64,000 bases of DNA from Halorientalis sp. IM1011 (lineage in GTDB: Archaea; Halobacteriota; Halobacteria; Halobacteriales; Haloarculaceae), in contig NZ_CP019067.1 of the NCBI RefSeq assembly GCF_001989615.1, forward strand, positions 62,001 to 126,000, in the 5' to 3' direction. The notes under the pieces were generated by a model. It was not told where the DNA came from. It searched no databases and was given only the letters and a program-made list of their open reading frames with translations. Shown piece by piece: positions 1,226 to 62,588 of this stretch. The position numbers were made by a program, and so were the translations under genes. Positions within the stretch are counted from its first letter, which is position 1, and every line of letters begins with the position of its first letter.

Positions 1226-3019
1226 TCAGATCTCGTCCAGATGGTCTTCCGACAGCGCGAACAGGCTGTTGTCACCGCCGCTCGGCACCATCGGGTAGAC
1301 GTTCTCCTCGGGGTCGATGATCGCGTCGACGACCGCCGGCCCGTCGTACTCCAGTGCGGCCTCGATGGTCTCCTCGACCTCGTCGTAGTCCTCCAGCCGG
1401 AAGCCGCGAGCACCGTAGGCCTCCGCGAGCTTGTCGAACTCGGGGACCCACGGGTACTCCGAGGCCATCCGGCGACCCTCGTAGAAACCGTCCTGCCACT
1501 GGCGGACCATCCCGACCGCCTCGTTGTTCAGGACGACGATGGTGATGTCGAGGTTCTCCCGCACCGCAACTGAGAGCTCCTGACTCGTCATCAGGAACGA
1601 GCCGTCGCCCTCGAAGGCGATGACCTCCTTGTCCGGCTTGGCCAGTTTCGCGCCGATGGCCGCGGGGAAGCCGTATCCCATCGTCCCGAGGCCGTGGGAG
1701 GTGACCCACGTCCGGGGTTCGGTCCAGGTCCAGTACTGCCAGGCCCACATCTGGTGTTGCCCGACACCGGCCGTGACGATGGTGTCGTCGGGCATCGCCT
1801 CGTCGAACTGCTCGACGATGTACTGGGGCTTGAGCGGCCGGTCCTCCGGCATCTCGTAGTCCAGCGGGTACTCGTCTTTCCACGTCTGGCACTGCTCGCG
1901 CCAGGCGTCGGCGTCGGGCGCGTCAGTCATCGCATCACTCAACTGATCGAGCACCGCTTTGGCGTCGCCCAGCAGCGGATAGTCGGCCTCGATGTTCTTG
2001 CTGATCTCGGCCGGGTCGATGTCCACGTGGACGATGTCGGCGTCCGGCGCGAACGTCTTCACGTCGCCGGTCAGTCGGTCGTCGAAGCGCGTCCCGATGG
2101 CGAGCATGCAGTCGGTCAGCGTGATCGCCATGTTGGCGTAGCCGGTGCCGTGCATGCCGGCGATGCCCATCGAGAGTTCGTGCGTCTGGTCGAACGCACC
2201 AGTCCCGGGCATCGTCGTCATGACCGGAATGTCGTACTCCGTGGCGAACGCGCGCAGTTCGTCGCTGGCGTTGGCCTTGATGACGCCGCCGCCCGCGAGG
2301 ATGATCGGTTTCTCGGCGTCGGAGATCACGTCGGCCGCCTCGCTGACGGCTTCGGCGTCGGCCTTCTCCGGTGGGTTGTACGTGTCCGGCGTCTCCGGTT
2401 TGCCCGGTTCCACGTCGGTCTCGGGCTGGGTCACGTCCTTGGGCAGGTCGACCAGCGTCGGCCCCTGCCGGCCCTCGTCGGCCAGCGCGAAGGCCGTGCT
2501 CACGTCGTCGCCGACCTCGTCCGGGGAGGTGGCGAAGCGGTTGTACTTCGTGATCGGCTGGGTGACGCCGATGGTGTCGGTCTCCTGGAAGGCGTCGTTG
2601 CCCACCAGATCCGTCGGGACCTGGCCCGTGAGCGCGATCAGCGGGTCCGAGTCCATGCTGGCGTCGGCGATGCCCGTGACGAGGTTCGTCGCGCCCGGGC
2701 CCGACGTGGCCATACAGACGCCGGGGTCGCCCGTGACGATCCCGTAGGCGTCGGCGGCGTGAACCGCGCCCTGCTCGTGGGCCATCGTAACGTGGGTCAT
2801 GTCCGACTCGCTGTACAGCGCGTCGTAGACGGGCATGATCGCCCCGCCCTGCACGCCGAACAGGTGGTCGACGCCGGCGTTTTTCAGCGCCGAGACGACC
2901 GCATCAGCGCCGGTCTCGATGGGTTCGACGTGGCTCTCGTCGTCGGGTTCGTCCGGTCGTTCGTCGGCCGCTTCCCGCTCGACTTCGTCCGCGTGTGGTG
3001 TCTGTGCGCTATCGCTCAT
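1226..3019 (-). CDS. ilvB: Acetolactate synthase large (catalytic) subunit
   Basis: Thiamine-diphosphate enzyme that condenses pyruvate with pyruvate or 2-ketobutyrate, the first common step to Val, Leu and Ile. The protein has 597 residues with three TPP-enzyme domains. Visible are the catalytic Glu82 in HEQGAVHAADAYG, the VATSGPGATNLVTGIADA-type core, and the TPP/Mg motif beginning GDGSFLM and ending in NN. A highly acidic ~35-residue N-terminal extension is typical of halophiles. The start ATG is supported by a GGAGG Shine-Dalgarno sequence at 3027-3031, 7 bases away. It is followed at once by ilvN. Confidence 0.97.
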   Translation of the reverse strand: MSDSAQTPHADEVEREAADERPDEPDDESHVEPIETGADAVVSALKNAGVDHLFGVQGGAIMPVYDALYSESDMTHVTMAHEQGAVHAADAYGIVTGDPGVCMATSGPGATNLVTGIADASMDSDPLIALTGQVPTDLVGNDAFQETDTIGVTQPITKYNRFATSPDEVGDDVSTAFALADEGRQGPTLVDLPKDVTQPETDVEPGKPETPDTYNPPEKADAEAVSEAADVISDAEKPIILAGGGVIKANASDELRAFATEYDIPVMTTMPGTGAFDQTHELSMGIAGMHGTGYANMAITLTDCMLAIGTRFDDRLTGDVKTFAPDADIVHVDIDPAEISKNIEADYPLLGDAKAVLDQLSDAMTDAPDADAWREQCQTWKDEYPLDYEMPEDRPLKPQYIVEQFDEAMPDDTIVTAGVGQHQMWAWQYWTWTEPRTWVTSHGLGTMGYGFPAAIGAKLAKPDKEVIAFEGDGSFLMTSQELSVAVRENLDITIVVLNNEAVGMVRQWQDGFYEGRRMASEYPWVPEFDKLAEAYGARGFRLEDYDEVEETIEAALEYDGPAVVDAIIDPEENVYPMVPSGGDNSLFALSEDHLDEI

Positions 3020-53134: not shown

Positions 53135-53920
53135 ATGATCGGTGGGTGGGGAACGACTGCGCTCACGGCCGTCGTCATTCTGGTCGCGTCATTTGTACAC
53201 GGTATCGCTGGGTTCGGGTTCGCACAGGTGTCGATGGGTATCTTGCCACTTTTTCGGAGTCCATCGAGTGCCTCAATCGTCTTCACAGCAACCGCCGTCG
53301 TGAGCAACGCACGCGTGTGGTGGAGCGTCCGCGACGCGTTCGACTGGCGGCGCTGGATCGTCCCGGTCGGGGGCCTCGTCGTCGGAATGCCGCTGGGCAT
53401 CTACGTGTTCAGCCGGTTCGACGAGACGCAGATGCGAGTCGCCATCGGTGTCGTGCTGGTCGTGGCGGTCGTCGTCGTGGGTGCGACACAGCAACTGGAC
53501 GCGGTCACCGACTGGATCGAAAAGAAAGACTACCGCCCGGGGAAGATCGTCGGCGCGTCAGCGGGGCTGTTCGCCGGGATCTTCGGCGGTGCCGTGGCAG
53601 TCCCTGGCCCTCCCATGATCGTCTATGGGGCCTTCATGTCGGCGAGTGGGTTCTGGAGCGGCGAGGAGATGAAGGCCGTGTTCACGGCTTTTTTCGGGAC
53701 ACTCATGCTGTATCGCCTGGGGTCACTCACGTACACGGGTGCGGTCACGACACCGCTTCTCGTCGAGGCGCTCGTCGCCATTCCGATGGTGTTTCTCGGC
53801 GCCTGGATCGGAGTGTACATCTTCGACCACATCCCCGAACGCATCTTTCAGTGGCTGGTCCTCCTGCTGTTGACCGTGAACGCCTTCGTCCTCCTGTTCA
53901 CGTCGGTTCCGGAACTGTAA
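53135..53920 (+). CDS. TauE/SafE-family sulfite/organosulfonate exporter
   Basis: 261 residues, about eight helices. GIAGFGFAQVSMGILPLFRS and AGIFGGAVAVPGPPMIVYGA are the two TauE repeats with conserved Gly and Pro. Members export sulfite, sulfoacetate or take up related anions. It is convergent with a rhodanese-MBL gene and close to a SoxB-like gene, which supports a role with sulfur compounds (inference). Confidence 0.93.
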   Translation: MIGGWGTTALTAVVILVASFVHGIAGFGFAQVSMGILPLFRSPSSASIVFTATAVVSNARVWWSVRDAFDWRRWIVPVGGLVVGMPLGIYVFSRFDETQMRVAIGVVLVVAVVVVGATQQLDAVTDWIEKKDYRPGKIVGASAGLFAGIFGGAVAVPGPPMIVYGAFMSASGFWSGEEMKAVFTAFFGTLMLYRLGSLTYTGAVTTPLLVEALVAIPMVFLGAWIGVYIFDHIPERIFQWLVLLLLTVNAFVLLFTSVPEL

Positions 53921-53927
53921 CGGGGGG

Positions 53928-55076
53928 TCAGGCGGCGCAGTTGTTCGGCCCCAGTTCGAGTTCGGTGGCCTCGTTCTCCGTCTCGGCACGATCCGTCCCG
54001 GTGTTGATCGCGATGACGTCCTCGTAGTTCGGTGGTTTCTCCGGAGCGTCGTCCGTCAGGCGCTCGACGAACGCCTCCCGGTCGAGTTCGAGCAGATCCA
54101 GTTCCGCTCCGAGATCACCGAGTCGAGCCGAGATCGCCTGTCCCGGCGAGCCGTTCTCGTAGCGACCGTCACTGGTCACGGTGACGTGTCCGGGAAGGAC
54201 AGTACGGTCGTGGGACAGTTCCAGAATCGTCTCGTGGAGCGTCTCGTAGAGGAGTTCCGCGCCGTGAGTTGCGTCGGACTCACCGAACTGGAGTTCGGTT
54301 CGACCGACCGAGTCGACGAACAGCGTGTCGCCGGTCAACAGCAGTTCGTCACCGACACGGAAGTTGACCATCTCCGAGGTGTGGCCCGGGGCGTGGAGTG
54401 CTTCGACGGGCACGTCACCGACTTCGATCACGTCCCCGTCGGCCAACGGTGTGAACTCGTACTCGACGCCGCGATCCGTGGCGGCTTCGCCGAGGTAATA
54501 CTCGACGCCGATATCGTCGGCGAGTTGCGGACCGCCGGAGATGTGATCGGCGTGGACGTGCGTGTCGAGGACGCCGTCGATCACCAGACCGGCGTCCTGT
54601 GCAGCGAGTTTGAACTGGTCCGTCTGCCGGGTCGCGTCGACCACGACGGCCGTCCCCGCCGACCGCGACCCGACGACGTACCCGAGACACCCCTTCGCCC
54701 GCCGCTGGACCTGTCGCACGACGAGATCGTCGTCGTCGGTCCGGATCGGAACGACCTCGTAGACTTTGCTCCAGGCTTCCATGCCGCCCGAGACGACCGA
54801 GACGTCCTCGAAGCCGTTCTCCGCGAGTTCCAGGCCGAAGGGCGTCGAGGTCAGCCCCTTCCCGCAGATGGCGACGATCGAGTGCCCGTCGGTCATGGAC
54901 GACACCTCGTCCAGTTGGGATCGATCGAGCCCCTCGCTGGGATCGTACGGGACGTTTTCGGCACCCCGCACGTGCCAGGCTTCGTAACTGTCGGTCGGTC
55001 GCGTGTCGACGAGCGTGAACTGTTCGTCGGCGTCGATTCGATCCGCGAGTCGTTCGACGGTGATGGTTTCGACCAT
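53928..55076 (-). CDS. Rhodanese-MBL fusion (persulfide dioxygenase-like)
   Basis: 382 residues. Residues 1-110 are a rhodanese domain with active-site Cys71 in VAICGKGLTST and the usual VDTRPTDSYEAWHVRGAEN. Residues 120-340 are an MBL hydrolase with THVHADHISGG (His173, His175, Asp177, His178), LHAPGHTSEMVNF, LLTGDTLFVDSVGR, VLPGHVTV, as in persulfide dioxygenases. The C-terminal part is acidic with a final CAA. A fusion of the two is common for handling sulfane sulfur: rhodanese transfers it and MBL oxidises it. It lies 61 bases from the SoxB-like gene. Confidence 0.93.
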   Translation of the reverse strand: MVETITVERLADRIDADEQFTLVDTRPTDSYEAWHVRGAENVPYDPSEGLDRSQLDEVSSMTDGHSIVAICGKGLTSTPFGLELAENGFEDVSVVSGGMEAWSKVYEVVPIRTDDDDLVVRQVQRRAKGCLGYVVGSRSAGTAVVVDATRQTDQFKLAAQDAGLVIDGVLDTHVHADHISGGPQLADDIGVEYYLGEAATDRGVEYEFTPLADGDVIEVGDVPVEALHAPGHTSEMVNFRVGDELLLTGDTLFVDSVGRTELQFGESDATHGAELLYETLHETILELSHDRTVLPGHVTVTSDGRYENGSPGQAISARLGDLGAELDLLELDREAFVERLTDDAPEKPPNYEDVIAINTGTDRAETENEATELELGPNNCAA

Positions 55077-55137: not shown

Positions 55138-56928
55138 CTATCGGTGGTGGTTGTGGCCCTCCTCGGGGAAGCGATTCCCGCGGGGGATCAGTCTCGTCTC
55201 GCAGTAGGCGTCGCCGTCGGCGTAGTCCACACCCGGCTGGACGAACGGGTACGGGCCGTCTGCGGGCGTGTTCTGGGCGTCGCCGCCGTCGTCGGCCGTC
55301 CGGACCCGTCCCGACGCCTCGTAGTCGATAGGCGAGTGTTCGGCCAGGTAAGCCACGACCACGTCGGCCGGGGTCGTCTCGTCGTCGACCTGCACGTCAT
55401 GGAACGGGAAGCCGCAGTTCCCGAGGTCGCGTTCCGGGTCGCCCGGCCTGCGGAACGTCGCCACCGAGTAGGTCGCCTCCGGATCGATCGGGTCGCCGTC
55501 GATCCGCAACTCCACCAGGCGGCGGCCGCGCTTCGCGGTCGGGTCGACGATCACTTCGACGTTCGAGGAGTACGACCGGACCCGGCCGTCTTCCTGGGCG
55601 TACGGGTACGGCGTGAAGTTGTCTTCGAGGAACCGCTCCATGTGACTGGTCAGCTGTTGCCCGTACGCGACACCCTTCGCGACCGGTGCCGTCATCGGGA
55701 ACGCCGTGTACACGTCGCCGAGCGTTATCTCGCCGGGCGGGACCACGGTTCCGTAGCGGAACCCGTGCGCGACGGCCAGATCGGTTCCGAAGTGCGACCG
55801 CACGGCGTCGTTGAACAGCGTGTTCCAGGTGCTCTCCAGAAACGACTGCCGGCACAGGGCTGTCTCCGTCCGACCGACGACCGTATCGAGCGGTCGGTCC
55901 AGCCGTCCGGCCCCACGCTCGAAGTCGGGATCGTCGTCGAAGAACGGTCGCCGCACGGCCTCGATGGTCGCCGCCGCCTCCGGGTCAGGGTTCGGCGTGT
56001 ACGGGCTGTTCTCGGTCAGGCAGTAGAGGCAGTGGCGAAACTGCAGCTGGCCGTCACGGATTCGGAGGTCGACGCGGCCGAGCGCGTCGCCCATCCCGGA
56101 CTCGACGACGACGGTCCCGTCGACGAGCAACGGATCGTACGTGTACTCGTGGGTGTGGGCGCTGAACAGCAGGTCGACCGTCGGACAGTCCTTTGCGGCC
56201 TGCACCATCCAGGGGAGGCCGATCTCGGTCACGCCGACCACGATGTCGGCCCCCTCCTCGCGAGCCTCAGTTGCAGCGGATTCGAGGAGCCTCGGGTGTT
56301 TTCCGAACCGGTACTTTCCCCGGTAGAACGCGGGCGCCATCCGATCCACGTAGACGTTCGTCATGCCGACGACGCCGATGACGACGTCGCCGACATCGAG
56401 CAGTTCGTAGGCATCGTACAGCCGATCGGTCGAGTCCCAGTCGTAGAGGTTGGCGGCCAGCACGGACGCGTCGAGTTCGTCCAGCAGTGCTGTGACGTTC
56501 CCGTCCTCTGGGGCCTCGTTCGAGTAATCCCAGTTCCCGGGGACGTACACGTCGGGACACAGGTGTCGATCGATCGGTTCCAACATTACACGGCCGTTCG
56601 TGTAGGTCGTCTCCGCGGAGCCGTGAAACGTGTCGCCACACATCAGTGTCCGGACGGGGTACTCCTCGCGCAGTTCGTCCAGTTTCGCCGAGAGGACCGG
56701 AACGCCGCCTGCGCGTTCGATCACGCGATCGTCGCCGTCGAATTCGAGTCCGGGATTGGACTGCTGCGTGTCGTAGTAGACCTGATCCCGGGCAGCCAGC
56801 TGGCCGTGGAGGTCGCTCACGTGTGTCAGCACCACGTCCGGGTCGCCGTCGGTAGCGACTCGGCGCCCGTCGCAGTTCCGCCACGAACCCAGGTGGTCTT
56901 CCGATGGGGCCATTCCTGGAGTACCCAT
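55138..56928 (-). CDS. SoxB-like metallophosphoesterase/5'-nucleotidase-fold protein
   Basis: 596 residues. Metal motifs: VVLTHVSDLHGQL (Asp39, His41), LMCGDTFHGSAETTYTNGRV (Asp99), VPGNWDYSNE (Asn132 with Trp133 replacing the His of 5'-nucleotidases, as in SoxB), and LFSAHTHEYTYD (His258, His260). The residue equivalent to a further metal His is Glu235 (VGVTEIG). A C-terminal 5'-nucleotidase domain follows (FRYGTVVPPGEITLGDVYTA). SoxB releases sulfate from a carrier in the Sox system, but here no signal peptide or lipobox is seen, so a cytoplasmic location is likely. Start 56928; Met6 is an alternative. Confidence 0.82.
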   Translation of the reverse strand: MGTPGMAPSEDHLGSWRNCDGRRVATDGDPDVVLTHVSDLHGQLAARDQVYYDTQQSNPGLEFDGDDRVIERAGGVPVLSAKLDELREEYPVRTLMCGDTFHGSAETTYTNGRVMLEPIDRHLCPDVYVPGNWDYSNEAPEDGNVTALLDELDASVLAANLYDWDSTDRLYDAYELLDVGDVVIGVVGMTNVYVDRMAPAFYRGKYRFGKHPRLLESAATEAREEGADIVVGVTEIGLPWMVQAAKDCPTVDLLFSAHTHEYTYDPLLVDGTVVVESGMGDALGRVDLRIRDGQLQFRHCLYCLTENSPYTPNPDPEAAATIEAVRRPFFDDDPDFERGAGRLDRPLDTVVGRTETALCRQSFLESTWNTLFNDAVRSHFGTDLAVAHGFRYGTVVPPGEITLGDVYTAFPMTAPVAKGVAYGQQLTSHMERFLEDNFTPYPYAQEDGRVRSYSSNVEVIVDPTAKRGRRLVELRIDGDPIDPEATYSVATFRRPGDPERDLGNCGFPFHDVQVDDETTPADVVVAYLAEHSPIDYEASGRVRTADDGGDAQNTPADGPYPFVQPGVDYADGDAYCETRLIPRGNRFPEEGHNHHR

Positions 56929-57076: not shown

Positions 57077-57328
57077 ATGGCAGACAGAGACGACCTGCGC
57101 CAGCAGATGATCGATGCCTTCGGGGGGGCCGACTATCCGATCTCCAGTCCGATGGATCTCGTGCCCGCCCTGCCCAACGGGCCGTCGACGACGTTCGAGT
57201 CCGGGGACTTCTCGATGACGGCGATGGAACTGAATACCAAACTCTCTGGCGGTGATTTCCCCTACGACAGTGCCGAGACATTCGTCGACGATATCGTGGA
57301 CGAACTCGAAAATCAGGATCTGATCTGA
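57077..57328 (+). CDS. MTH865-like family protein
   Basis: 83 residues. MADRDDLRQQMIDAFGGADY, ISSPMDLVPALPNGPSTTFE, FPYDSAETFVDDIVDELENQ. It matches the short helical MTH865 family (EF-hand-like fold) found in many euryarchaea. The function is unknown. An AT-rich promoter stretch (57018-57052) lies just upstream. Confidence 0.88.
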   Translation: MADRDDLRQQMIDAFGGADYPISSPMDLVPALPNGPSTTFESGDFSMTAMELNTKLSGGDFPYDSAETFVDDIVDELENQDLI

Positions 57329-57353: not shown

Positions 57354-57842
57354 TCACGGTTGCGCGACAGCCAGTAGCGCCGCGACGGTACCTGCGACGC
57401 CGAGCGCGAGCAGACCGTAGTTGGCGAGCGGATTCTTTGCCCGGACGAGATCCAGTGTGATCGCGCGCCCCGAGAGCGGCCACAGCGGCCTGATACCCAT
57501 CGGCGTGAGTACGTCGCCGAGCAGGTGGGCACAGACGCCCAGCGTCCCGAACCCGAATCCCGCCACCGCGAGTTCGGGCGCGACTGGTGTGGTCGGTCGA
57601 CCGCCGAGGACCCACCCGACCGAGCCGAAACCGAAGCCGACGAGCAGGGCGAACCAGATGGTGTGGGTCACGCCGCGGTGGGACACCAGCGGTAGTTCGT
57701 GGTCCACGTCGGGCAGGGACGCGACAGAGAGCACGCAGAGCTCCCCGAGGACGGCCAGATCCGGACGCCCCACCAGCACCAGCGCGACGGCGACCGGGAG
57801 CACGACCAGCAGCGAGACGCCGAGGTGGCCTGCCCTGTACAC
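57354..57842 (-). CDS. Membrane-bound metal-dependent hydrolase (YdjM/DUF457)
   Basis: 162 residues, about four helices. SLPDVDHELPLVSHRGVTHT with DVDH and HRGxTHT metal motifs, and GVCAHLLGDVLTPMGIRPLW, where HLLxDxxTP completes the site. Members are inner-membrane hydrolases; LexA control in E. coli does not carry over here. Substrate unknown. Convergent with the MTH865-like gene. Confidence 0.93.
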   Translation of the reverse strand: MYRAGHLGVSLLVVLPVAVALVLVGRPDLAVLGELCVLSVASLPDVDHELPLVSHRGVTHTIWFALLVGFGFGSVGWVLGGRPTTPVAPELAVAGFGFGTLGVCAHLLGDVLTPMGIRPLWPLSGRAITLDLVRAKNPLANYGLLALGVAGTVAALLAVAQP

Positions 57843-57922: not shown

Positions 57923-58084
57923 ATGCTCACGTCGGTCGCCGAGACGGTACTGTGTCGGTTCGGTCCGTTCGTCGTGCCGGTCGCCCTCTTTTTCGGCGGC
58001 GTGGCCGTCTACGCTCTCCTGTGGCTGTTCTACCGCTGGCGCGACGGAGCGGTAGTCGATGGGGATTCGACCTGGGAGGAGTGA
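57923..58084 (+). CDS. 53-residue single-helix membrane protein
   Basis: Short gene: MLTSVAETVLCRFGPFVVPV, one long hydrophobic helix (about 16-40), then WRDGAVVDGDSTWEE. A GCTTAACC box at 57890s gives a start site close to the ATG. Likely real because of its acidic halophilic tail, though no function is known. Divergent from the YdjM gene. Confidence 0.68.
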   Translation: MLTSVAETVLCRFGPFVVPVALFFGGVAVYALLWLFYRWRDGAVVDGDSTWEE

Positions 58085-58127
58085 TCCACGCCGAACACTG
58101 AAGCCACTGGTGACCGATGCAATTGGC

Positions 58128-58700
58128 ATGCCAGAAGATATCGAGGCGATGACGCGGTTCGAGGTACCGGACGTGGCGGACCTGCCAGAGGACCTGCAGG
58201 AACGCATCGAGGAAGAGACCGAGCGCGCCGGATTCACGCCGAACGTTTTCCTCGCGTTGGGGTATCGCCCGAAACAGGCGCGGGCGTTCATCGAGTATCA
58301 CGACGCCTTGCTGGAGGAGACGGCGCTGGAGCGCGAGGAGATCGAGATGCTGATCGTCACGGTCTCTGGCGTCAACGACTGCCTGTACTGCATCGTCGCC
58401 CACGGCGCGCTCTGTCGAATCTACGCCGACGATCCCCATCTGGCCGAGCAACTGGCCGCGAACCACCGAACGGCGAACGTCAACGACGCCCACCGCGCGA
58501 TGCTCGATTTCGCCGTCAAACTCACCGAGGAGCCGGAGCGGATCGCGGACGAGGACCTCCAGCGACTCCGTGATCACGGCTTCAGTCAGGAAGCGATCTG
58601 GGATATCGGGAACGTCGTCTCCTTTTACAACCTCTCGAACCGGATGGCTCACCTGGCCGATATGCGGCCGAACGAGGAGTTCTACACGCTCGGTCGGTGA
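58128..58700 (+). CDS. Peroxidase-related AhpD/CMD-family protein
   Basis: 190 residues. VNDCLYCIVAHGALCRI holds Cys85-x2-Cys88 and His92, the redox-active proton relay of AhpD-like enzymes. Upstream, FTPNVFLALGYRPKQARAFI and FIEYHDALLEETALER are typical of the uncharacterised peroxidase-related enzyme family. It may reduce organic peroxides or act as a thiol-disulfide reductase partner. ATG 58128 is used; the in-frame extension from 58059 is inconsistent with the family. Confidence 0.93.
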   Translation: MPEDIEAMTRFEVPDVADLPEDLQERIEEETERAGFTPNVFLALGYRPKQARAFIEYHDALLEETALEREEIEMLIVTVSGVNDCLYCIVAHGALCRIYADDPHLAEQLAANHRTANVNDAHRAMLDFAVKLTEEPERIADEDLQRLRDHGFSQEAIWDIGNVVSFYNLSNRMAHLADMRPNEEFYTLGR

Positions 58701-59270: not shown

Positions 59271-59867
59271 ATGCGCGGACTCGACGACACGGACAGGGAG
59301 ATCCTCGACATCCTCCTCTCGGACGGGCGTCGTCCGTACAGCGACATCGCCGATGCGGTCGACCTCTCGCCGCCCGCGGTGTCCGACCGGATCGAACGGT
59401 TACAGGAGATCGGCGTGGTCCGTCGGTTCACGGTCGACCTCGACCGAACTGTTCTCCACGAGGGTGTCCCGGTGCTGGTCGACCTCCAGGTTCGACCCGG
59501 CCGGGCGAGCGCTGTCGCCGACGGGCTGGCGGACGCGGACCCGGTCGAGCACGTCTTCACCACCGCCGACGGACGCGTCGTGGCCACCGCCACGGTCTCC
59601 GACGGCGACGTGGGCGGGATGCTCTCCGAGGCCATCGAGATGGACACGATCGACGGATACGACGTGGACCTGCTCTCCGACACCGCCTGGTCGCCCTCGA
59701 TGGCCGAGGCGGAGTTCGCCCCCGAGTGTGCCGAGTGCGGCAACACGGTCGACACCGAAGGCGAGAGTGTCGAACTCGATGGCACGCTGTATCACTTCTG
59801 CTGTTCGTCCTGTCAGTCCCGGTTCGTCGACCACTACGAGGACCTTCGAGACGGCGCGACCTCCTGA
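59271..59867 (+). CDS. Lrp/AsnC-type regulator with TRASH metal domain
   Basis: 198 residues. N-terminal helix-turn-helix (1-60: LDDTDREILDILLSDGRRPY, DIADAVDLSPPAVSDRIERL), a middle alpha/beta domain, and a C-terminal TRASH zinc/copper-binding domain with Cys153, 156, 177, 178 and 181 (ECAECGNT, LYHFCCSSCQSRF). In Halobacterium a homologous Lrp-TRASH protein senses copper and controls a P-type copper ATPase. It lies 120 bases upstream of copA, in agreement. Confidence 0.93.
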   Translation: MRGLDDTDREILDILLSDGRRPYSDIADAVDLSPPAVSDRIERLQEIGVVRRFTVDLDRTVLHEGVPVLVDLQVRPGRASAVADGLADADPVEHVFTTADGRVVATATVSDGDVGGMLSEAIEMDTIDGYDVDLLSDTAWSPSMAEAEFAPECAECGNTVDTEGESVELDGTLYHFCCSSCQSRFVDHYEDLRDGATS

Positions 59868-59938: not shown

Positions 59939-59987
59939 TAAAACAAGGACAAACCGCTTCAACGTGGGTCCCCTATGTTCGAGTAAG

Positions 59988-62588
59988 ATGACCGAACGGC
60001 GCACGCGGCTGGAGCTGACGGGGATGAGCTGTGCCAACTGCGCGGGCACGATCGACGACTCACTCGCGGATCTCGACGGGGTCGCCGAGTCCGACGTGAA
60101 CTTCGCCACCGACGAGGGGACGGTGACCTACGACCCCGACGAGACCTCGCTGGCCGAGATCTACGCGGCCATCGAGGACGCCGGGTACGGCGTCGTCCGT
60201 GAGTCGGTCACCATCCCGATCACCGATATGTCCTGTGCGAACTGTGCCGAGACCAACGAGCAGGCACTGGAAGACCAGCCCGGGGTGATCGAGGCCGAGG
60301 TCAACTACGCGACCGACGAGGCCAGCGTGACGTACAACCCCGCCGAGACCGGCCAGTCAGCGCTGTACGATGCCATCGAGGACGCGGGCTACACACCGGT
60401 CAGGGACGACGAGCGCGATGACGGCGAGGGGGCGAGTGGGTCCTCGCAGGATCGCCAGGACGCTGCCCGGCAGGCAGAGATCGATCGGCAGAAACGACTC
60501 GTACTGTTCGGTGCCGCGCTCTCCCTGCCGCTGGTGGCGATGGCTGGGGTCCACTTGTTTGCCGAGGGGTTGCTGGCGGGGACGTTCGTCGGCGAGTGGT
60601 CCGGCGTAATCGCCCTCCTGCTCGCGACGCCCATCCAGATCGTGCTGGGCCGTGAGTTCTACGAGAACAGCTACACGGCGCTAGTCAAGAACCGGACGGC
60701 CAACATGGACGTGCTGATCGCGCTCGGCTCGTCGACGGCCTACGTCTACTCGGTGGTCGTCCTGCTCGGCCTGCTCGCCTCCGAAGGGCTGTACTTCGAC
60801 ACCGCGGCGCTCATCCTCGTGTTCATCACGCTGGGGAACTACCTCGAAGCCCGCTCGAAGGGACAGGCCGGCGAGGCGATCCGACAGCTGCTGGAGATGC
60901 AGGCCGACACGGCCACGCTGGTCGACGAGGACGGTGACGAACGGGAGATCCCGGTCGAGGACATCGAGGTCGGCGACCGGATGAAGGTCCGGCCGGGCGA
61001 GAAGATTCCGACGGACGGGACGGTCGTGGACGGCTCCAGCGCGGTCGACGAGTCGATGGTGACCGGTGAATCGGTCCCCGTCGAGAAGAGTGAAGGCGAC
61101 GAAGTGGTCGGGTCGACGGTCAACCAGAACGGCGTGCTCGTGGTGGAGGCGACGAAGGTCGGTTCGGAGACGGCGATCCAGCAGATCGTCTCGATGGTCA
61201 AGGACGCCCAGAGCCGCCAGCCGGAGATCCAGAACGTCGCGGACCGCATCAGCGCGTACTTCGTCCCCGCGGTCATCGTGAACGCGCTGTTCTGGGCGGG
61301 GATCTGGTACGCGTTCCCCGAGGTGCTGGCGGGATTCGTCGACGCCCTCCCGCTCTGGGGACTCGTCGCCGGCGGTCCCGCGGCGGCCGGCGGTGCCATC
61401 TCGGTCTTCGAGTTCTCGGTCATCGTCTTCGCCAGCGCGGTCCTGATCGCCTGTCCCTGCGCGCTGGGACTGGCGACGCCCGCGGCGACGATGGTCGGCA
61501 CCTCCATCGGCGCGCAGAACGGCGTCCTGTTCAAGGGCGGTGACGTGCTGGAGCGAGTCCGGGACACCGATACCGTCGTCTTCGACAAGACGGGGACGCT
61601 GACCGAAGGCGAGATGCAGTTGACCGACGTGGAAGTCCTCGGGCCGACCCCGGACGGCGGTGCCGCGGCCGACGGCGGAACGCTGCAACCCGAGATCGAC
61701 GAATCCTACGTCCTCGACGCCGCAGCCAGTGCCGAACGGGGCAGCGAACACCCGCTCGCGGAAGCCATCGTCGCCGGCGCGCGCGAACGGGACCTCGACC
61801 CCGCCGAACCCGAGGAGTTCGAGAACGTCCCCGGGCAGGGTGTGCAGGCCACGACGAGTCACGGCGAGGTCCTCGTCGGGAACCGCCGACTGCTCGACGA
61901 GCACGACGTGGATCCGGCACCGGCGGCCGAGACGATGGAGCGTCTGGAGAGCGAAGGCAAGACCGCGATGCTCGTCGCTGTCGACGGCGAGCTGGTCGGT
62001 GTCGTCGCGACGGCGGACACGGTCAAAGAGTCCGCGAAAGCGGCCGTGAGCGCGCTCCGCGAACGTGACCTGTCCGTCCACATGATCACCGGCGACAACG
62101 AGCGGACGGCCGAGGCCGTCGCCGAACAGGTCGGGATCGACCCCGGGAACGTCCGCGCGGAGGTTCTGCCGGAGGACAAGGCCGACGCTATCGAGGCGAT
62201 TCAGGACGACGGCGAGCGGGCGATGATGGTCGGTGACGGTGTCAACGACGCGCCCGCGCTGGCGGCGGCGTTCGTCGGCTGTGCCATCGGCAGCGGAACG
62301 GACGTGGCAATCGAGGCCGCAGATGTGACGCTGATGCGGTCGGACCCCCAGGACGTGCTGAAGGCCATCCGCGTCTCCGAGGGGACGCTGGCCAAGATCA
62401 AGCAGAACCTGTTCTGGGCGCTGGGGTACAACACGGCGATGATCCCGCTGGCCTCGCTGGGGCTGTTGCAACCCGTGCTCGCGGCGGGTGCGATGGCGCT
62501 GTCAAGCGTCTCCGTGCTGGCGAACAGCCTCGTGTTCCGCTCGTACACGCCGACGGAGGATTACCGGCTGCTCGGCCGGTTCCGCTGA
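59988..62588 (+). CDS. copA: Copper-exporting P-type ATPase CopA
   Basis: 866 residues, P1B-type. Two N-terminal HMA domains with MSCANC (Cys15/18 and Cys83/86). Membrane helices begin near 175. The actuator loop has [15 protein letters not shown], the transport site is CPC (489-491, [11 protein letters not shown]), the phosphorylation site DKTGTLT (Asp533), the nucleotide-binding HP motif is at His588 ([10 protein letters not shown]), and [12 protein letters not shown] is the hinge. It pumps Cu(I) out of the cell. An acidic linker (150-165) separates the HMA pair from the membrane. The start is ATG 59988. Confidence 0.97.

Follow-up and report, generated by a model that had tools for sequence, protein, structure and literature searches.

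A predicted cytosolic SoxB-like protein with a substituted metal ligand, conserved in haloarchaea beside sulfur and copper genes

SoxB is usually viewed as a periplasmic enzyme that depends on the SoxYZ carrier. The 64,000-nucleotide stretch of Halorientalis sp. IM1011 analyzed here (the window) raises the question of what a relative of SoxB might do inside the cell, lacking a signal peptide and bearing a glutamate in the place of one metal-binding histidine. The original prediction, made from the sequence of the window, had suggested for this protein an internal hydrolysis of sulfane sulfur or thiosulfonate rather than a classical Sox system, also in view of the neighboring rhodanese–MBL fusion. 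The features of the locus, which lies on a 3.38 Mb contig with the genes of gyrase A and topoisomerase VI B in the same window, are compiled in Table 1.

Table 1. Positions within the window of the SoxB-like gene and its neighbors
Feature	Position	Strand	Remarks
TauE/SafE family (sulfite/organosulfur) exporter	53135..53920	+	261 aa; here downstream, convergent
Rhodanese–MBL dioxygenase-like fusion	53928..55076	-	382 aa; rhodanese N-terminal (Cys71); starts 61 nt past the SoxB-like stop
SoxB-like metallophosphoesterase-fold protein	55138..56928	-	596 aa; ATG start; no signal peptide; key residues D39, H41, D99, N132, W133, E235, H258, H260, R391, C505
MTH865-family protein	57077-57328		between SoxB-like gene and copper ATPase
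YdjM-like membrane protein	57354-57842		between SoxB-like gene and copper ATPase
Peroxidase-related CMD protein	58059-58700		between SoxB-like gene and copper ATPase
AsnC/Lrp regulator with HVO_1752-type TRASH domain	59271..59867	+	adjoins the ATPase; ~2.3 kb upstream of SoxB-like gene
Copper-type P-type ATPase	59964..62588	+	two N-terminal MSCANC motifs; ~3 kb upstream of SoxB-like gene

The protein comprises Metallophos and 5_nucleotid_C domains, which are not diagnostic of the UshA type because the nucleotidase models in question are matched by SoxB relatives as well. Its affinity to the SoxB side, as had been predicted, is borne out by three comparisons. The top NCBIfam match is SoxB (TIGR04486) with 191.6 bits, far under the curated cut-off of 550 bits, versus 49.1 bits for UshA (NF007109, cut-off 600 bits); bona fide SoxB proteins of Ruegeria and Allomeiothermus reach 843 and 726 bits, respectively, on the SoxB model. 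A sequence search of the PDB returned Thermus thermophilus SoxB first (E 1.7e-28), with the UshA type at E 1.3e-07, and a fold search with an AlphaFold2 model built from 40 sequences (pLDDT 76, pTM 0.80) likewise ranked SoxB structures first (2wdc, E 1.9e-35, TM 0.73/0.80) and the nucleotidases behind them.

In phylogenetic trees including nucleotidases and four true SoxB sequences, the haloarchaeal proteins stood together with SoxB, a wider set of relatives and a Bacteroidota group, opposite the nucleotidases, which split off with an SH-aLRT support of 99 in one tree and with 100/99 in two others. The haloarchaeal clade is thus placed outside the 5′-nucleotidases and not well inside them. It is itself supported at 100/100 and sits on a long stem (~2 changes per column); it was sister to SoxB in one tree (92/76), outside SoxB plus the wider relatives in another (81/34), and never within SoxB. 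Approximately unbiased (AU) tests of three candidate nearest neighbors of the haloarchaea gave p values of 0.30 (SoxB), 0.30 (the wider relatives) and 0.19 (the Bacteroidota group; p-AU 0.188 for a common clade with the haloarchaea), none being rejected. A second 5_nucleotid_C protein of the Halorientalis sp. IM1011 genome (G000:C1:353074-354261) groups with the nucleotidases in the tree.

Alignment to Escherichia coli UshA, anchored by the invariant G237 and with the UshA residue identities confirmed on the E. coli CDS, pairs Trp133 with the catalytic His117, Asn132 with Asn116, Ser136 with Asp120, and Glu235 with the metal ligand His217. Both residue assignments of the original prediction, the tryptophan of the GNWDY motif (within PGNWDY) and the replacement of a metal histidine by glutamate (within VTEIG), are hereby confirmed. 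Asn132, Trp133 and Glu235 are invariant in all 49 haloarchaeal sequences, and position 235 is histidine in 107/107 other aligned family members (91/91 wider relatives, 4/4 SoxB and 12/12 nucleotidases); Glu235 is therefore a fixed trait of the clade, a sequencing error or a private mutation being ruled out. D39, H41, D99, H258, H260 and R391 are retained, the catalytic His–Asp pair of nucleotidases is replaced by W133 and S136, and SoxB has histidine where the haloarchaeal clade has N132. Metal site 2 should accordingly be composed of D99, N132, E235 and H258, and with one metal histidine gone, it may differ in metal binding or action. Altogether, 172 of the 596 positions are invariant across the 49 sequences, including all metal ligands besides 235. 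Cys505, the sole invariant cysteine of the clade, is part of a motif resembling RPGDPxxDLG[NG]CGFPF that aligns at the UshA loop GGDGYP, and the C-terminal tail around NTPADGPYPxxQPGVDY is also strongly conserved.

Compared with SoxB (T. thermophilus 2wdc; TIGR04486), the haloarchaeal protein has the same two-domain fold, the tryptophan in place of the nucleotidase catalytic histidine, the R-[YW]-G motif and most of the metal ligands. However, it differs in having neither signal peptide nor SoxYZ partners, in scoring below the family cut-off, in the glutamate for one histidine ligand of site 2 and the asparagine, as in UshA, for another, and in possessing the invariant Cys505 and a C-terminal tail of its own, with 23% identity in the fold alignment. 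By the tests made, its sequence is that of a SoxB-like variant, distinct and conserved, that lies outside SoxB proper.

The predicted absence of a signal peptide also held, since the open frame runs just 11 residues 5′ of the ATG (607 versus 596 aa), leaving no room for one, and 48 homologous haloarchaeal loci show only a short hydrophilic stretch ahead of the first β-strand, again with no signal peptide. The haloarchaeal protein is thus predicted to be cytosolic.

The adjoining fusion gene carries the motifs expected of a persulfide dioxygenase–rhodanese fusion, that is, an MBL metal motif and an active-site Cys (THVHADH at 172, APGHT at 229, GDT at 249, and GRTEL, besides Cys71 of the rhodanese), and its PDB matches include 3tp9, BpPRF and ETHE1. 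Its linkage to the SoxB-like gene, on which the original prediction had leaned, is conserved: a homologue is found near 34 of 50 haloarchaeal copies, in almost every case as the next gene downstream in the same orientation and typically ~60 nt away (four gaps near 3000 are an artefact from overlapping extended frames). TauE occurs near 29/50 copies, in most of these relatives divergent and upstream of the SoxB-like gene, the window having it on the opposite side. Either or both of the two accompany 41/50 copies, and neither is in reach of the other nine. Around 11 control loci (nucleotidase paralogues), no TauE and one partial rhodanese–MBL match were found, and a looser search of the same controls gave one matching locus for each. 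The Halorientalis sp. IM1011 genome also encodes a YeeE/YedE-type transporter at another site. SoxY and SoxZ gave no match in this genome or in five relatives, while positive-control records matched; a classical Sox system is therefore rejected for the organism, in agreement with the original prediction. Within the order Halobacteriales, the family is present in 48/392 genomes and 27/95 genera, and more copies reside on haloarchaeal plasmids, where they are mostly labeled 5′-nucleotidase. Two haloarchaeal copies (G693:C13:38910-40745 and G605:C70:44974-45882) are ~58% identical to the query, the match being split inside a frame of 727-728 aa.

SoxB is understood to free sulfate from SoxYZ-bound thiosulfonate (PMC5336275), the genetics of Erythrobacter flavus offers a precedent for SoxB acting with a sulfur dioxygenase and without SoxYZ (PMC7608252, PMC9426585), and the cst operon of Staphylococcus aureus pairs TauE with a persulfide dioxygenase-sulfurtransferase/rhodanese (PMC5480029). 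Putting the three together, we give about an even chance to the haloarchaeal protein being a cytosolic, SoxYZ-free thiosulfonate hydrolase that passes persulfide to the rhodanese-dioxygenase, with sulfite leaving via TauE. In the predicted sequence of steps, an S-sulfonate or thiosulfonate (R-S-SO3- or R-S-S-SO3-) would form when thiosulfate or tetrathionate meets cell thiols, and the di-metal center of the SoxB-like protein would hydrolyze it to sulfate and either a thiol or a persulfide. The rhodanese-dioxygenase encoded by the downstream gene would then accept the persulfide sulfur and oxidize it to sulfite, which TauE would export. We infer the reaction, the substrate, the order of the steps, the effect of Glu235, and the physiological role, which may be sulfur oxidation, detoxification or copper tolerance.

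The two systems invoked are similar to the haloarchaeal locus only in part. The TsdA-SoxB-SDO pathway of E. flavus 21-3 also employs SoxB with a sulfur dioxygenase without SoxYZ, and SoxB-like proteins of the 5′-nucleotidase family are encoded there too, but its SoxB is classical and it includes the c-type cytochrome TsdA. The S. aureus cst operon (tauE, cstA, cstB, sqr) is similar in containing TauE and a persulfide dioxygenase-sulfurtransferase fusion, whereas no SoxB-like protein is among its listed genes, and the domain order differs, the CstB-like PDB matches starting with the MBL domain and the fusion of the window with the rhodanese domain.

Copper genes are almost as frequent in the neighborhood as sulfur genes (34/49 versus 41/49 family loci in the looser search), and the role may therefore be copper tolerance, not sulfur oxidation: removal of sulfonate or sulfane from copper-damaged thiols would protect the thiol pool, and multicopper oxidase, plastocyanin and copper ATPase would act alongside the SoxB-like protein. 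In those 34 family loci, but in 0/11 controls, at least one gene for a multicopper oxidase, plastocyanin, copper ATPase, DUF302 or DUF326 protein lies within ~8.5 kb. The number of controls is small, and their replicon types were not matched to those of the family loci; part of the enrichment may therefore reflect plasmid islands, and sulfur and copper genes may simply share the same mobile islands. In 14 loci, a multicopper oxidase gene directly follows the rhodanese–MBL gene on the same strand; copper ATPase homologues are found near 10/49 family loci, including the window, where the TRASH regulator is also close to the gene. Of the genes lying between, those of the MTH865 and peroxidase proteins each recur in just one other family locus. 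Against such a module, the Natrinema-type loci (L140-L143) have DsrE and rhodanese–MBL but no multicopper oxidase or ATPase, and we regard it as a rather unlikely explanation.

It is also conceivable, with a somewhat lower probability, that the protein is a phosphoesterase acting on a phosphorylated metabolite other than a nucleotide, the sulfur neighbors being coincidental or indirect. The Metallophos and 5_nucleotid_C domains would suit this, as would the retained GFP motif, which resembles the nucleotidase GGDGYP loop, but the catalytic His–Asp pair is gone, the clade lies on the SoxB side of the tree, and the linkage to sulfur genes is conserved. The substitution of the metal histidine throughout the clade could further mean that Glu235 spoils metal site 2 and that the protein is no longer an enzyme but a scaffold or sensor that binds metal or persulfide. 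We find this improbable, because the invariance noted above, which extends to the other metal ligands, suggests a strong constraint on the active site, and because glutamate is itself a good metal ligand. Finally, an ordinary cytosolic 5′-nucleotidase, as annotated in plasmid records, is very unlikely and is rejected here by motif and tree, since the protein shares with UshA the fold, the Asn ligand and a GxxGFP-like loop but has both UshA His117 and Asp120 replaced, falls more than tenfold short of the NF007109 cut-off, and belongs to another clade.

Returning to the proposed cytosolic thiosulfonate hydrolase, its setting may be compared with that of the wider relatives. Genome contigs scanned with a bacterial alignment yielded 80 SoxB-like loci (Pseudomonadota, Bacillota, Chloroflexota, Bacteroidota, methanogens and others). 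Searches with single-sequence seeds detected MBL (27), TauE (13), YeeE (11), DsrE (10) and TusA (8) genes near these loci, and SoxY, SoxZ, SoxA and SoxX near none. Among ten genomes tested behind them, SoxY and SoxZ were not found in nine, the exception (G715) having two of each. These proteins (e.g., L066 and L179, annotated as bifunctional metallophosphatase/5′-nucleotidase) resemble the haloarchaeal clade in the tryptophan at the catalytic His position and in sulfur-gene neighbors without SoxYZAX. Of seven aligned bacterial plasmid examples, all but the one from Runella begin at or very near the first strand and have no signal peptide. In contrast to the haloarchaeal clade, the wider relatives keep His at position 235 (91/91), mostly have HW[ED] instead of NWD, show 24-32% identity, and form a separate clade. 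DsrE genes are near the SoxB-like genes of Methanoculleus and related methanogens (L178, L179, L182, L184, L198 and L202), with L179 reaching 342 bits against the SoxB model. To our knowledge, the methanogens and Clostridia that hold such relatives do not oxidize sulfur with oxygen, which counts against the proposed pathway.

The Bacteroidota group (Runella L065 and L242-L255) is similar to the haloarchaeal clade in its PGNW motif (PGNWE) and in exchanging a metal histidine for a carboxylate, but the exchange is at another position: His is kept at 235, and the first His of GHTH, at 258, is Asp (Gly in L244). An invariant cysteine follows its GDP/GEP motif, although homology to Cys505 is uncertain because the spacing differs by two residues. 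The Runella gene adjoins MBL, DsrE, TauE and YeeE genes, and its product, unlike the haloarchaeal protein, has a Tat-like signal. In Pontibacter aydingkolensis (G720:C2:108993-115516; L211, L254 and L258), a single sulfur cluster encodes two different SoxB-like paralogues separated by ~3.7 kb, a situation reminiscent of the SoxB-like paralogues that were reported for E. flavus. We speculate, at low probability, that Cys505, situated where UshA has its nucleobase-holding loop, might serve as a built-in carrier replacing the SoxY cysteine, with Glu235 (or Asp at 258 in Bacteroidota) retuning metal site 2 for thiosulfonate chemistry and the product passing to the rhodanese-dioxygenase in the cytosol.

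A literature search on SoxB in haloarchaea found no description of the haloarchaeal SoxB-like family among the papers listed. Beyond the original prediction, the analysis adds the family-wide fixation of Glu235, the setting in copper islands, the large SoxB-like family of bacteria and methanogens, the invariant Cys505, and the Bacteroidota group with its exchange of a different metal histidine. If the proposed function is true, a large set of carrier-free relatives of SoxB, many of them apparently cytosolic and linked to dioxygenase, TauE, YeeE, DsrE and TusA genes, has been standing under a nucleotidase label, and genomes would have to be read differently for their sulfur oxidation potential. 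Natural metal-site variants, such as those of the haloarchaeal and Bacteroidota branches, would allow the ligand needs of thiosulfonate chemistry to be tested.
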